Positions 19,326 to 37,557 of a DNA stretch of 37,557 nucleotides are shown here, one piece after another. This DNA comes from Bacteroidales bacterium. GTDB taxonomy: Bacteria; Bacteroidota; Bacteroidia; Bacteroidales; WCHB1-69. Each line of letters starts with the position of its first letter. Positions within the stretch are counted from its first letter, which is position 1. The translations under genes and the position numbers were made by a program. The DNA lies in NCBI GenBank assembly GCA_031285725.1, contig JAITVP010000056.1, forward strand, positions 1-37,557, given 5' to 3'. Below the pieces are notes generated by a model that searched no databases, had not been told where the DNA came from, and saw only the letters and a list, made by a program, of their open reading frames with translations.

Positions 19326-22300
19326 ATGAGAAATATAAGTAAAATAGTTTTTTTAGTGGTCACACTTGCAGTTTTTGGTATTAGCCAACTGCATGCTGAA
19401 AAAAGTAGATATGTGATCCCCAAGGCGGCTCAACCGCGTTCAATCGGAACCTGTTTGCCTGCCTCAAACTCCAATGAATTAACAATTAATAACGTTAGAG
19501 CCTATTTGGAGACCAACGGTACCATGTGGTTTATCGAGACCGCGGAATATGAAGTTCCGAAAGGCTCCGGAAAGACCTCCATGTTCTGTGCAGCGTTGTG
19601 GATCGGTGGACGCGATGTGAACCAACAGTTGAAATTGGCTGCGGTTCGTTTCCGCCAAAACGGGGATGACTTTTGGACTGGTCCGCTCTCTACCATAGAC
19701 GCTACGATTTCACAACAAACCTGTATCGAATACGACAGATTCTTTAAGATCACCCGGGCTGAAGTGGAAGCGCATATCGCCAACTGGGAACGCCCTGATT
19801 ATACCATGCCGTCGATTATTCGGAATTGGCCGGCTCATGGTGACGTGTCTTTAGGACAATCTATGTTCTTGGCACCTTACTTTGATGGAAATGGGAATAA
19901 AAAATATGAGCCGGATCTCGGAGATTATCCTTATTACGATTTGGAAAACGAATTGTGTCCGTGGACAGCGGAGAATAAAGAGCTGGCTATTGCCGGACAA
20001 CTCCCCAAAACTCCCGAAGAATCAGCAGGAATTTCAACAGGGATGGTCTATGCCGATCATGTGTTGAAAGGGGATGAAACATTATTCTGGGTATTTAACG
20101 ACAAGGGTAACACACATACCGAAACCGGCGGTGAACCCATCGGATTGGAAATCCGCGGACAGGCGTTCGCTTTCGCTACCAATGACGAGCTGAACAACAT
20201 GACGTTCTATTCTTACGAGATCATCAACCGTTCCACGTATGAATTAACTAATACCTATTTTTCCCAATGGGTTGACCCTGATTTAGGATATTCGAAAGAT
20301 GATTATGTGGGTTGCGATGTTAGCAGGGGATTAGGGTATTGCTTCAACGGAAAAGATGTTGACGGACAAGGGGAAATCTTTGCCTATGGTTCACAGCCTC
20401 CGGCAGTTGGCGTGGACTTCTTTCAAGGACCTTACATTGATCCCGAACCCGAAAACATGTACGACAGACCGAAATTTAACATCGACTCCGTGTCTTATCC
20501 GGGATATTGTGAAAAATATGTGAATCATGAATATAATCAAATGTCAATCAATGGGGTGAACTTCGGCGATGGTATTCCCAACAATGAACGTTTTGGGATG
20601 AGACGTTTCGTGTATCACAACAATGACAATTCCGTTGTGGGGGATCCAAGTGTGGCTTATGAATACTACAATATGTTGCAAGCTATTTGGAAAGATAATA
20701 CGAGAATGCGTTACGGAGCAAACGGCCATCCGAGTAATGGAGCTAATGGCCCTGAGTGTGATTTCATGTTTCCGGGATTGACCGACCCATGTAACTGGGG
20801 AACGAAAGGGATTGACCCTAATCCCTTACAATACAGTGAAGATGGTTGGACCGAACCCGGTGTGGGCAATGCGCCGGAAGACCGGCGTTTCATGCAGTCC
20901 GCAGGACCTTTCACTTTGAAAGCCGGAGCGGTTAACTATATCACCGTGGGTATTCCATGGGCAAGAGCTTCCTCCGGTGGTGCTTGGGCATCTGTGGAAT
21001 TGCTGAAAACAGCCGACGACAAATGCCAAGCGTTGTTTGAAAACTGCTTCAAAGTACTTGACGGTCCCGATGCACCGGATGTGACCGTTCGCGAATTGGA
21101 AAATCAATTGATTCTTTACCTAAGCAATGATGATCCGTTAAGCAATAACCACAATGAAGGGTATAATGAAAATGACAATCAAATTCTGGCAGAACGGGAA
21201 ATCATTACAGAAGTGGAAATTCAAGATACCAACTGGATTACAGTGGGTGCGGTTGACACTTTTATAGTTGAAACCAAAACGGTGAAACAAATCACAACGG
21301 TAGACAATGATAGAACATACCGTTTCGAAGGGTATCAGATCTATCAATTGAAAAACAAAGACGTGAGCGTGACCGATTTGAACAACGCCGACTTGGCGCG
21401 TTTGGTTCGTCAATGTGACATTGAAAATTATAAAGAAAATGGTTCGGGTATCGCTCGATTGGTGAATTGGACTTACGATGATGTCGCAGGTACTTCCGTG
21501 GCGAAACCCATGGTGGATGGTGCGAATGCGGGCATTTCCCACTCGTTTCCTATTACCGAGGATGCGTTTGCTACAGGTAGTAATAGGATTTTGGTAAATC
21601 ATAAAGTGTATTATTTTATGGTGATCGCTTATGCTCACAATGAATATTTTCCTTTTTCCTTGGATAATGGTGCTGAAGGATTGACTGGACAAAAAACTCC
21701 TTATCTGGCAGGTAGAAAGAATATCAAAGTCTATTCGGGCATTCCCCATTCACCCGCTCCGCAATCGGAAGGAACAATTCTGAACGCTCAATATGGCACC
21801 CAACCCATGATCACCCGGATCGAAGGGCAGGGGAACGGTGGATTTTTCCTGGATTTGGTTGATGAAGATCGTGAAAAAATCTTGAAAGAAAATACAGTTC
21901 AACAGATCACCTATAAAAACAACTATGGCCCGTTGAACATTAAAGTGATTGACCCGTTGCAAGTGAAACCGTTCGACTATGAAATCAAATTCGTAGAATT
22001 AGGCGCAAAGGATGTTACTGACTCAACCTATTGGGTGATGACAATTGTGAACGCTACAGATGAAGAGATCATTGCCGCAGGTGCTTATACCGAGGATGCA
22101 CATGGAGTTAAAACAGCTATCAGGGAATATAGATCCGCTGTGCCGATCTCTCAGAAAAACGAGCAGTTGATTCTTAGCTTAGGTATCTCCATCTCTATTT
22201 TGGATTACGGTTTTCAAGTTCACCAGAGCGAAATTGCAGATTGGGTGAACAACAATTCCTCATGGACCTATGCGAACAAAGCAAGATATGCGCAAGTGGA

Positions 22301-24050
22301 CTTTTTAGGAAGTTCAATCACTTATGCGGATGAATCCAAACCGTGGTTTGCCGGTGTGCCGGATAGCGAAGGGAACAATCAAAGCAACTGGATTCGCTCG
22401 GGACTGCAAACCGCTGGTGCTTGGCAAGCTCTTAGCAGTGCGGATCAAGGAGTGAAGGATGTCTATTCTCAATGGAAAACAGAAGATATATTCATGGTGG
22501 TGAAAGACACCAATTTGAATGCCGGTGGATGGGAATCCCGCGTGTGGAAAGATCCGGAAGGACAATTCGAAGGCGTGCTCGGTGGCACGTGGGCACCCTA
22601 TGTGTTGTCTTCCCCTTACGATGGTGGGCCTCAAGCAAAATACATTAATCCGGAAACCGATGGTGTTACGGAACCCACGCCCGCTTATTTTAATTTTAAA
22701 GACCCTTCTTCGTTTGCAGTGGGTGGCCCCGGATACAATCAAACCATGACCAATTTATATTCCGTGGACATCGTGTTAACCTCCGACAAGGATAAATGGA
22801 CACGTTGTGTCGTGTTGGAAGCGTGCGAAGACAGGACGTTGTCTGAAGGCGGCGCATTGAAACACGAACCGAGAAAAGCCCCCTCTGTGGACAAATACGG
22901 CAACACGGATATCAATAATCCTGTGGCAAGCAATGATCCGAATTCTCCAAACTACATCAGCGCTACCGGAATGGGTTGGTTCCCCGGTTATGCGGTGAAT
23001 GTGGAAACCGGTGAAAGACTAAACCTTATGTTCTCTGAAAATTCTTCCGATGGGGATAATAAAGGTAATGATATGTTGTTTAACCCCACCGGTATTTATG
23101 GTTATTTCATTGGACAGTGGAATGGAAACGATACTGTTATGCCGTTAAACCAAGTGTCATTCAATAGCCTTTATCCACCTCCGGTTAATGCTAACTATGA
23201 GCTGAAGTTGGCGTGGGGTGGAATGCACTTTGTTTTCGTTTGCAACAGTGCCGGAAACACAGCCTCTACCTACTACAAGGTCGCAAGTGCGAACAAGGAA
23301 CGCAACTATAACGATAATAACTTGACAACTTATAGCCAAGGGTATACTCATGGCGGAACGATAGCAGATGGTAAATCTTACTATGAGTGCGGTCCTTATG
23401 ACCAAGGTCAATGGTTGTTGGCGAAGTTCAATACTTTCGTTGGCGAAGGAACAGGCACAGCGAAGGTGCAAATGCAAAAAATGCAATTGTTTAACAATGT
23501 GATGTGGACTAGCATCGCCATGCCGGCGTCTGGACAGGAAGACAATTGGCTTTCCAATAATGCGATACTGAAATTGCGCGTTTCCCGTCCTTACATGAGA
23601 TACTCTTCTCGCTGGTTTGACGATCCGAATCAATCCGGTGCGGCGGGCAGCAATTCCGGATACCCGATGTACAGTTTCACCACGAGAAACATTGCGCCGA
23701 CAACACAAGCTACCTCGCAACACGATCAAATCTTGGAAGACATTAATATTGTTCCCAATCCTTACTACGGATTCTCCACCTATGAATCCACAGCATTGGA
23801 AACTTACGTGAAAATTGTTAATCTCCCCGAAAAATGTACCATCTCGATCTTCACGGTCAATGGACTTTTGGTGAGGAAAATCACCAAAGGGGATGAGGGA
23901 ACGACTCACGTTGCTTGGAATTTGAAGAACAACGCAAATGTGCCTATCGCCAGTGGTATGTATATTATCCATGTTAATGCTCCAGGAATTGGGGAACGGA
24001 CGTTGAAGTTCTTCTGTGCGATGAGACCCACCGACTTAAATGCGTTTTAA
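19326..24050 (+). CDS. Giant T9SS cargo protein (type A sorting domain)
   Basis: 1574 residues, with a signal peptide (MRNISKIVFLVVTLAVFGISQLHAE). The N-terminal region carries GSGKTSMFCAALWIGGRD and RQNGDDFWTGPL, a pattern I associate with very large Bacteroidota surface proteins, then a Ca-binding-like DGNGNKKYEPDLGDYPYYD around residues 190-205. The middle has repeated Asn/Asp-rich loops with many Tyr and Trp but no enzyme motif that I recognise. The last ~104 residues (from EDINIVPNPYYGF) form a C-terminal sorting-type sandwich: TISIFTVNGLLVRKI, then WNLKNNANVPIASGMYIIHV and GERTLKF. It continues MRPTDLNAF beyond the final strand. It should be exported by T9SS and attached to the surface. 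It starts 20 bp after the TonB-like gene. Confidence 0.82.
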   Translation: MRNISKIVFLVVTLAVFGISQLHAEKSRYVIPKAAQPRSIGTCLPASNSNELTINNVRAYLETNGTMWFIETAEYEVPKGSGKTSMFCAALWIGGRDVNQQLKLAAVRFRQNGDDFWTGPLSTIDATISQQTCIEYDRFFKITRAEVEAHIANWERPDYTMPSIIRNWPAHGDVSLGQSMFLAPYFDGNGNKKYEPDLGDYPYYDLENELCPWTAENKELAIAGQLPKTPEESAGISTGMVYADHVLKGDETLFWVFNDKGNTHTETGGEPIGLEIRGQAFAFATNDELNNMTFYSYEIINRSTYELTNTYFSQWVDPDLGYSKDDYVGCDVSRGLGYCFNGKDVDGQGEIFAYGSQPPAVGVDFFQGPYIDPEPENMYDRPKFNIDSVSYPGYCEKYVNHEYNQMSINGVNFGDGIPNNERFGMRRFVYHNNDNSVVGDPSVAYEYYNMLQAIWKDNTRMRYGANGHPSNGANGPECDFMFPGLTDPCNWGTKGIDPNPLQYSEDGWTEPGVGNAPEDRRFMQSAGPFTLKAGAVNYITVGIPWARASSGGAWASVELLKTADDKCQALFENCFKVLDGPDAPDVTVRELENQLILYLSNDDPLSNNHNEGYNENDNQILAEREIITEVEIQDTNWITVGAVDTFIVETKTVKQITTVDNDRTYRFEGYQIYQLKNKDVSVTDLNNADLARLVRQCDIENYKENGSGIARLVNWTYDDVAGTSVAKPMVDGANAGISHSFPITEDAFATGSNRILVNHKVYYFMVIAYAHNEYFPFSLDNGAEGLTGQKTPYLAGRKNIKVYSGIPHSPAPQSEGTILNAQYGTQPMITRIEGQGNGGFFLDLVDEDREKILKENTVQQITYKNNYGPLNIKVIDPLQVKPFDYEIKFVELGAKDVTDSTYWVMTIVNATDEEIIAAGAYTEDAHGVKTAIREYRSAVPISQKNEQLILSLGISISILDYGFQVHQSEIADWVNNNSSWTYANKARYAQVDFLGSSITYADESKPWFAGVPDSEGNNQSNWIRSGLQTAGAWQALSSADQGVKDVYSQWKTEDIFMVVKDTNLNAGGWESRVWKDPEGQFEGVLGGTWAPYVLSSPYDGGPQAKYINPETDGVTEPTPAYFNFKDPSSFAVGGPGYNQTMTNLYSVDIVLTSDKDKWTRCVVLEACEDRTLSEGGALKHEPRKAPSVDKYGNTDINNPVASNDPNSPNYISATGMGWFPGYAVNVETGERLNLMFSENSSDGDNKGNDMLFNPTGIYGYFIGQWNGNDTVMPLNQVSFNSLYPPPVNANYELKLAWGGMHFVFVCNSAGNTASTYYKVASANKERNYNDNNLTTYSQGYTHGGTIADGKSYYECGPYDQGQWLLAKFNTFVGEGTGTAKVQMQKMQLFNNVMWTSIAMPASGQEDNWLSNNAILKLRVSRPYMRYSSRWFDDPNQSGAAGSNSGYPMYSFTTRNIAPTTQATSQHDQILEDINIVPNPYYGFSTYESTALETYVKIVNLPEKCTISIFTVNGLLVRKITKGDEGTTHVAWNLKNNANVPIASGMYIIHVNAPGIGERTLKFFCAMRPTDLNAF

Positions 24051-34863: not shown

Positions 34864-37439
34864 TCACCTCACCACCGTCACTTCCCCTTTTACAGTGTGC
34901 CGTTTTCCGAAATGGTCCCGGTAGTGAATGATGTACACGAACATTGCGCCGTTGAGGGTATGCTTCCCGTTGCCGGTGCCGTTCCAGCCGCTGTCGGGGT
35001 TTTCAGTGTAGAAGATTAATGTTCCCCAGCGGTCGTAGATCGACATTTTGAATTCCGTCATATCTATCGTCACAAATTCGGGTTTGAAGAGGTCGTTCAA
35101 ACCATCGCCGTTGGGAGAGAAAGCGCTGGGGACAAAAAACGAGGTTTTGTCTTTGATATCCAAGGTCAAGGTCGTGCTATCTTCGCAGTCATTATCATCT
35201 CTCACATAAAGAGAGACTTCGTATTGCCCAATCTCATCATACCGATGCTCGGGATATTGGGTTGACGAACCGTTACCATCACCAAAATTCCACCGCCAAT
35301 AGGTCGCATTTTGGGAACAATCGACGAAACGCAACATGTCGTTGATGAAATTGGGCGGAGACGGAGATACCGTAATACATGCTTTAATATCCTGTATATT
35401 ATTGATAGTGAACGGGAAATCGATAGGGCATATTCCATCATCTACCGAAATCGTGTAATTTCCCGGCCGGAGATTGAAAGCGGTGCGATCTGTGTAATTT
35501 TCGATACCGTTCCAATAGACATCATAATGATCCGATGAGGTGCTGATGTTGATTTCAATGGAGCCGTTATCTTTATTGCATGTCGCATGCGTGATTTTGA
35601 CAATAGAGACCATGATTGGGTCTGGAATTGTGATTTCCACAATGCCGATTTCCAAGGTGTTACATTGATCGTGTACACTGACGATGACATCCGTCTCCTC
35701 GGTAATGATCGTTCCAACGGCTGGCGTTTGCGAGAAGGTGATCTCGTCGCTGCTCACGCAATTGTCATACGCCGCCGTATCGAACAGTTCCGTAATATCA
35801 GGGATAGAGTATTGTCCGTTTTGGCAAATCGCTTCTGCGGAATAGACAGTCGTTTCAATGGTAGGCGGTTCAATATCTTGTATCAAAATGGTGATCGTGT
35901 CCCGTTTCATGCAGTTATTCGCATCGGTGACTGCCAGATAGACTTCGACGAGGGAGTCACAGAGGTAAGCGGCAGAGATATTGGTCTGGGCGGAGGCAGG
36001 GTCGCCGGCAATAGCTGCGGCGTTACCATTCCACTGGTAAGAATAGGGTGGCGTTCCGCTCGTCACTTGTGCGGCGATGGTATGATTGATCTCGAAATGA
36101 CAAAAAGGATCAGGGAATTGTGTGACCACGGTTTCGACCGACGGATAGATGTGGACATACACACCGACGGCGGAACCGCACCCGTTGGCAGAGCCGACTA
36201 CTTGGAAATAGGTGGACGTGGTGGGTGCCACCAAAATCGTCGAGGTGTCGATCTCTGTGGTGTTCCAACGGTAGGAATCTGCACCGGAAGCCACCAAGCG
36301 GGTGGTGTCGTTGGCGCAAAGCGTGTCGCGGTAAGCGTAAACGCTAACATTGGGAAGGCTGTTTACTACCACGGGAATGGTGGTAACAACCGTGTCGCCA
36401 TCGGCAAGGAAAAGATAGAGTGTGTAATTGCCACTGTCCGCCGGCATGGCATCGTAAATGGTCGGAGCACGTTCCGTGGAAGTGAAACCATTGGGGCCTT
36501 CCCAGTAGACGGTGGATCCACTTTCCGAATTAGCGCAATAGAGGAAAAGAATATCACCCTCGCAAACCGGACTGTTGCTGCCGGCCAAGGAGAGCACGGA
36601 ACAGTCGGTTTCCGCTGTGGTGTAGTTTGTTTCCACGGCATTGAAAGAGATGACACCGGGCACGCTCGCAAAATTTGTAATGAGCAGCAAATAAAATTCC
36701 CCTTCTTGCGCATCGGGAATAAAACACCATTCCGTGCCTGCAGAGTGATAACTACAGTCTATCATATTGTCCACGGGATATCCTCCAAAATTTCCATTGG
36801 CATGGTCTCCGTTAGTAGGTCTATGGGTTGAGGTCGATTCAGTATAAAAATCGTATCTGCCGCAACACAAGTTATTTTTAAAATCGGCAGATGTGCTAGC
36901 GGCAAAAGGTCCCCAGCAGGCAAAATCCACATCCGATTCAGAGCCGTCCGAATCCCGAAATTGTTGCAAATAAATTAGCAGATTTCCGGGTTCGCTAATA
37001 CGCATATAGTACCAAGCGGCAGGTTTATCGATATTGCCCAGACAGCCCACGGAGGATTGTCCGAAAAAAACAGTCGGGTAACCGCCGGTGCCGGAAGGAT
37101 AGCTGATTCCGTCCGGGGTGTCGTCGGTACAGAACGGGTGCAGGCTTACTCCGTCGCAAGGCGATCCCAATGCGGAGGAAACGGTAAAGCAAGGTTTGCA
37201 GCTTAGACCCGCAGCCCACCCGGAACTTACCCCTTCGCCGTTTGACGTGAAAAAGAGGGTGATCACCTGACCGGTGGTTTCTATTCTGGGGGGAAGACTA
37301 TTTCCCATGAACGTACCCAACACCGGAGAGGAGGTCGATGCGCCGTCGTAAACATACAAACAATCATAATCACTCAAAGAAAACTCATAAAATTCCAACA
37401 CTAAGGGTTGGCCATCTTCTGAGATGTAAATTTGCGTCA
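34864..37439 (-). CDS. T9SS type B (CHU_C) surface protein, second exon; gene interrupted by a group II intron
   Basis: About 857 residues lie in the window. From the intron boundary: a CUB-like domain (QPLVLEFYEFSLSDYDCLYVYDG, then FTSNGEGVSSGWAAGLSC), a Cys-rich jellyroll-like part (NIDKPAAWYYMRISEPGNLLIYLQ), Ig-like segments (PVCEGDILFLYC; DTLCANDTTRLVASGADSYRWNTT), a PKD domain (YWRWNFGDGNGSSTQYPEHRY) and the gliding motility-type sorting domain (FVPSAFSPNGDGLNDLF, YDRWGTLIFYTENPDSGWNGTGNG, VKGEVTVVR). It should be secreted by T9SS and attached to the surface. The open frame continues upstream to an ATG at 37521, but that 27-residue start lies in intron domains V and VI, so it is not the native N-terminus: the signal peptide and first part of CUB must be in an upstream exon outside the window. 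Confidence 0.8.
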
Positions 37440-37497
37440 ATCGAGTAGGAGGAAAACGAAGTAGTTTGCTTCCTACTTTCGTTTTCCGACCTCTCAC

Positions 37498-37531
37498 ACC
37501 ACCGTACGTGCCGTTCGGCATACGGCGGTTC
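37498..37531 (-). ncRNA. Group II intron domain V (catalytic hairpin)
   Basis: On the minus strand the lower stem pairs 37529-37521 with 37506-37498, including a G-U pair at 37526/37501. The expected catalytic triad is CGC (37527-37525), as in IIC-type introns, rather than the more common AGC. A two-nucleotide bulge (37508-37507) separates the short upper stem, closed by a GAAC loop rather than a GNRA loop. Total length is about 32 nt. The fold was drawn by hand, so the alternative pairing with bulge AC is also possible. Confidence 0.75.
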
Positions 37532-37532
37532 T

Positions 37533-37557
37533 TTACCTACGATGCAATTTACTGTAA
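37533..37557 (-). CDS. Possible last codons of the intron-encoded reverse transcriptase/maturase (partial)
   Basis: Reading the minus strand in from the right edge gives YSKLHRR then a TAA stop (37533-37535), ending just before domain V, where group II intron reverse transcriptases normally end (their ORF sits in domain IV). A short basic tail is common at that end. Only seven codons are visible, so this is a weak, position-based suggestion. Confidence 0.3.

Follow-up and report, generated by a model that had tools for sequence, protein, structure and literature searches.

A mobile group IIC-like intron cuts a CUB-domain gene in a Bacteroidales genome, most likely as its second in-frame insertion after lnt

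The stretch of DNA analysed here (37,557 nt in all, hereafter the window) corresponds to contig 143 in a genome of Bacteroidales type that totals 2.11 Mb on 197 contigs. At its right-hand end, an open reading frame for a putative type IX secreted protein with a CUB domain runs straight into what had been predicted, from the letters alone, to be the 3' end of a group II intron. This raises the question of whether the intron splits the gene for a surface protein, so that the protein would depend on a ribozyme, or whether the gene has simply lost its beginning.

The identity of the intron is clear. A cmscan of the 37.6 kb window against all Rfam families returned a single match above the gathering threshold, namely Intron_gpII (RF00029) at 37440-37530 of the minus strand, which covers the full length of the model (1-77) with 45.4 bits (gathering cut-off, 40 bits) and an E-value of 6e-06; such a match had been anticipated near 37498-37531. 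A consensus fold was derived from the last 92 bases of 18 tails, that of the window and those of 17 relatives. It contains six base pairs with pair-keeping changes on both sides (for example GC/AU and CG/GC in domain V, UA/CG and GC/AU in domain VI), evidence that is limited to the apical parts, because the relatives had been picked by a pattern fixing the base of domain VI and the last bases of the intron. Domain V, domain VI and a bulged branch-point A seven nucleotides from the end, all of which the original prediction had named, are accommodated in this fold (Table 1), and the intron terminates in ...CTCGAT, i.e. in AT, in keeping with the AY requirement. The ascription of the first 27 residues of the naive open frame to intron sequence was likewise correct, both in count and in coordinates. 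The terminal segment of the window is therefore the 3' end of a group II intron that cuts a CUB coding sequence in the sense direction.

Table 1. Features of the intron, of the interrupted CUB gene and of the sister copy in lnt.
Feature	Position	Strand	Basis
Intron 3' part, last 118 nt, group IIC-like, cut by the contig end	37440..37557	-	RF00029 match; common to 8 contig ends of the genome
Domain V	37498..37529	-	Consensus structure with compensatory pairs
Domain VI	37442..37496	-	Consensus structure with compensatory pairs
Branch-point A, bulged, 7th base of the intron counted from its 3' end	37446	-	Unpaired column in consensus fold, 3' strand of domain VI
First 3' exon base T, probable IBS3	37439	-	T in 8/8 own copies and in 79/80 related loci among the matches listed
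3' exon: CUB, SprB, PKD, CHU_C type IX sorting domain	34864..37439	-	832 codons without a stop; the junction falls behind base 1 of the first codon
Spurious N-terminal extension, 27 intron-derived codons of the naive frame	37440..37521	-	Stretch recurs in other intron copies
lnt 5' half	Contig C38 (L106), junction 106 nt from contig end	-	Ends ATG...GCC ATT TTT G, then intron
lnt 3' half	Contig C75 (L061)		Intron, then TT TTT GTG GCT and the rest of apolipoprotein N-acyltransferase

What remains of the gene breaks off at this very point. The Pfam CUB domain of the window gene spans only positions 35-108 of the 110 in the profile, its first third being absent, and the PKD and type IX sorting domains are intact. 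Alignments with homologues from the same bacterial family begin at residue 24-30 of the naive frame, i.e. at the junction, which bears out the expectation that the CUB domain would start abruptly just after the intron. Homologues in other genomes carry about 25-30 extra CUB residues upstream as well as an N-terminus that resembles a signal peptide by eye, and the start of the gene is thus missing from the window. The junction falls between the first and second bases of a codon (?TG ACG CAA; the 3' exon begins with TGACGCAAATT), and any base in the first position would yield Met, Val or Leu, which fits the mostly hydrophobic residue (I, F or Y) that homologues have there. Elsewhere in the window, a 1574-residue open frame (19326-24050) lies directly downstream of a gene for a TonB-dependent-receptor-like protein and has no Pfam match at 1e-5.

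The intron is not confined to this locus. The genome holds eight 3' ends and ten 5' ends of it, all near contig ends, as one would expect of a repeated element that breaks up the assembly; the eight contigs with a 3' end each contain only 79-118 nt of intron before they stop. A single substitution, C in place of A at 37468, sets the 3' end of the window apart from the seven others, a private change which argues that it is a distinct genomic copy and no stray assembly join. The 5' end, which was located via a relative with a complete intron (L055), is GTTCGCCCAGCA and occurs at ten contig ends. Own copies begin with GTTCG, one base off GUGYG, and relatives begin with GTGCG, GTGTG, GTATG or GTTCG. 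The 5' part can be read for at most 300 nt in any own copy. A reverse transcriptase (RT) gene, which was expected to the right of the window, was not found in the bin by a search of this genome, and close relatives of the intron do encode one; the shared body of the intron has probably collapsed into an unbinned contig. Given that the bin holds no RT, we assume the splicing competence of the local copies. At another locus (L060:3342-3426), an intron copy with its 3' end on contig C49 adjoins a convergent tRNA-Leu(gag) gene.

Rho-independent terminators between genes make up nine of the ten own 5' exons, with the intron beginning right after the T-run, and the tenth is a hairpin with a T-run inside lnt. 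All ten reach -15 to -22 kcal/mol in their last 45 nt and have 5-7 T in their last 8; among 3000 random stretches of this genome, 0.1% show both a fold of -15 kcal/mol or less and five or more T among the final eight bases. As a rule, this element inserts behind terminators. Its 3' end recurs at no fewer than 80 loci of public genomes, mainly Bacteroidales, according to a pattern scan, and among the matches listed every related intron with a readable 5' flank (14 of 14) lies behind a hairpin, usually with a T-run; L190 and L138, the flanks of which are cut short by a contig end, are left out of this count. The relative L161, 80% identical to the own intron over the 5' 289 nt, encodes an RT in which only RVT_1 and GIIM domains were found, with no En domain, and which has its best PDB matches in the RT of GsI-IIC (E 5e-123) and a group II RT/maturase (7uim; 2e-121), LtrA matching far less well (5e-51). 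With terminators as 5' exons in nine cases of ten and the RT of a close relative nearest to that of GsI-IIC, the element looks like a group IIC (bacterial class C) intron.

Several of the related loci have features of their own. Long sense frames, suggestive of interrupted genes, follow 17 of the 76 usable related 3' junctions among the matches listed, and were set aside, as nearly all of them overlap longer antisense frames or have a nearby start. One doubtful case comes from an uncultured Prevotella (L143, 95-120), where a related intron is followed by TGGCAAATACT... and a 1390-residue open frame, the start codon of which would be completed by the 5' exon (A/TG) or would be a TTG that uses the last intron base. 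The complete related intron at L055:3480-5398 has the terminator of the preceding gene as its 5' flank and, by eye, something like the middle of an IS200-type transposase gene as its 3' flank; recombination between intron copies or misassembly may explain this mismatch. RT-less derivatives seem to be common in the family: the intron at L054:597-1282 and those in L154, L167, L139, L180 and L173 have both ends and are 0.5-1.0 kb long, too short for an RT gene. The locus G002, with a 90% identical tail, proved to be a degraded 3' remnant lacking the 5' part.

The copy in lnt, a gene of lipoprotein maturation, supplies a parallel to the CUB junction. On C38 the coding sequence reads MKIVFCLLSGLLLWLSWPPVGVAIF and one base of the next codon before the intron begins, the exon junction being ...GGCCATTTTTG/TTTTTGTGGC.... 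When C38 and C75 are joined at the intron ends, they encode an intact Lnt of 547 aa, exactly in frame, with LNT_N matched over its full profile (1-159) and a CN_hydrolase domain. A TIGR00546 search of the genome found its only lnt match on C75, and since the two contigs carry halves of the gene that complement each other, with no further lnt found in the genome, we infer that they flank one and the same intron copy. Within its last 45 bases the lnt 5' exon folds into a hairpin (-22 kcal/mol) and closes with TTTTTG, so that coding DNA here resembles a terminator. Read without splicing, lnt runs into a stop after eight further codons. Because only one lnt was found and its exons rejoin in frame, the intron there is most likely removed from the mRNA by splicing; the exactly in-frame split of the only lnt also implies that accurate splicing is probably needed. 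The literature searched, mostly outside subscription journals, contains no report of lnt split by a group II intron.

For the CUB gene, we consider it fairly probable that the mobile group IIC-like intron, whose 3' end closes the window, has made here a second in-frame insertion comparable to that in lnt. The element has spread to ten or more sites of the genome, retrotransposing to terminator-like DNA (a hairpin with a T-run), normally between genes; two of the eight visible 3' junctions lie within protein-coding genes, in the sense direction. In lnt, the coding sequence contains a terminator look-alike and the exons rejoin exactly in frame, and the gene for the CUB/type IX secreted protein has most likely received an in-frame insertion of the same kind. 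Its 5' exon, with the signal peptide, the first CUB strands and probably a T-run end, would then be on a contig missing from the bin. The codon phase shared with lnt, the conserved T at +1 and the intact 832-codon frame all suggest that the CUB copy is probably a second split gene, one that is interrupted and spliced. The residues that precede the junction in homologues (NNQD-I/F-TQ) show no obvious T-run coding, and the CUB target would therefore be less terminator-like than that of lnt, unless the window gene differs.

The upstream exon with signal peptide and CUB start, which had been expected, was not recovered in the bin: none of the ten own 5' junctions carries it, and neither a protein search with two homologues nor a degenerate 5' intron pattern gave a candidate. 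The bin is 94.6% complete, so that this does not amount to proof of absence. Contig C144 ends within a domain seen at the N-termini of some homologues and was weighed as the origin of the 5' part, but it reaches neither CUB nor intron and was rejected. The idea that an intron splits a surface-protein gene thus holds as regards a real, sense-direction cut in CUB, but not as regards a lone intron, as there are at least ten mobile, terminator-targeting copies. The further suggestion that a surface protein depends on ribozyme splicing is made plausible by the in-frame split of lnt, with the missing CUB 5' exon standing against it. That the intron has colonised coding sequences via accidental in-frame terminator look-alikes, making both the only lnt and the CUB protein dependent on splicing, is a broader proposal that we put forward tentatively.

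A different history is conceivable, in which the CUB gene is a dead, 5'-truncated remnant: the intron would lie behind an ordinary terminator, as it usually does, and deletion or recombination between intron copies would have joined its 3' end to the middle of the gene. Intergenic insertion being the rule of the element, with terminators at nine of ten own 5' exons, and the CUB 5' exon being absent from the bin, such an event would account for the junction, and the flanks of L055, unlike two halves of one site, could be read in the same way. It would, however, demand a breakpoint that hits the intron 3' end exactly, with T at +1, and that leaves a frame of 832 codons intact, and elsewhere in the genome another copy does interrupt a gene in frame. 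We therefore hold truncation to be unlikely but not negligible.

Two further readings appear much weaker. The 3' exon might be expressed without splicing from an ATG in domain V (37521), whose frame fits the CUB exon as well as that of lnt, so that the products would have an intron-encoded N-terminus; no stop interrupts this frame in domains V and VI, and C75 has the identical leader, also in frame. This leader, MPNGTYGGVRGRKTKVGSKLLRFPPTR, is no signal peptide by eye, however, so that the type IX product would not leave the cell, both CUB and the first helix of Lnt would be incomplete, and a frame shared by the two exons has a 1 in 3 chance anyway, which makes expression of this kind very improbable. 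An artefact, the intron end and the CUB gene having been wrongly joined by the assembler, might be suspected because the contig ends in a repeat and the genome is fragmented into 197 contigs. Yet the repeat is entered only from a unique flank, the window copy has its private base change less than 30 nt away from the junction, and the similarity to other CUB proteins ends at the intron boundary; we regard it as the least probable of the readings. Interruption of the CUB gene by a second in-frame copy hence remains our preferred explanation.

Class C introns are thought to be little harmful, because they lie behind terminators. An in-frame copy in the only lnt, at a hairpin with a T-run, suggests a route by which a terminator-targeting intron could enter a core gene and bring about splicing dependence. 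Such a transition from parasite to obligatory intron has seldom been caught in bacteria, and this genome allows it to be tested directly.

Class C introns insert right after intrinsic terminators (Robart et al. 2007, as cited in PMC8919778; see also the review PMC4424553) and are stated not to break coding sequences (PMC8919778). The element described here resembles them in having a terminator hairpin with a T-run as 5' exon and T at +1, and in its close relatives of ~1.92 kb with one RT/maturase of ~475 aa, which has RT and maturase domains only and is closest to that of GsI-IIC; it differs in that one own copy lies in frame inside lnt and one inside a CUB domain. Bacterial introns in housekeeping genes are noted for cyanobacteria and for the CL and ML lineages (PMC4424553). 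There, as here, the host protein would require splicing, but the present intron is of another class with another target recognition. A precedent for the setting is C.te.I1 of Clostridium tetani, a group II intron that interrupts a surface layer protein gene and the splicing of which has been demonstrated (PMC3919590); the window intron likewise lies inside a gene for a probable cell-surface protein, from which it would be spliced. C.te.I1 lacks an RT, its 5' splice site is shifted, and alternative products arise through several domain V/VI units further downstream (PMC3919590). The window, in contrast, contains a single RF00029 match and no such series of units, and its intron is mobile, with just one domain V/VI and a 3' end of the usual kind. 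The intron itself is ordinary; what is unusual is where it lies, in lnt and probably also within the CUB gene.
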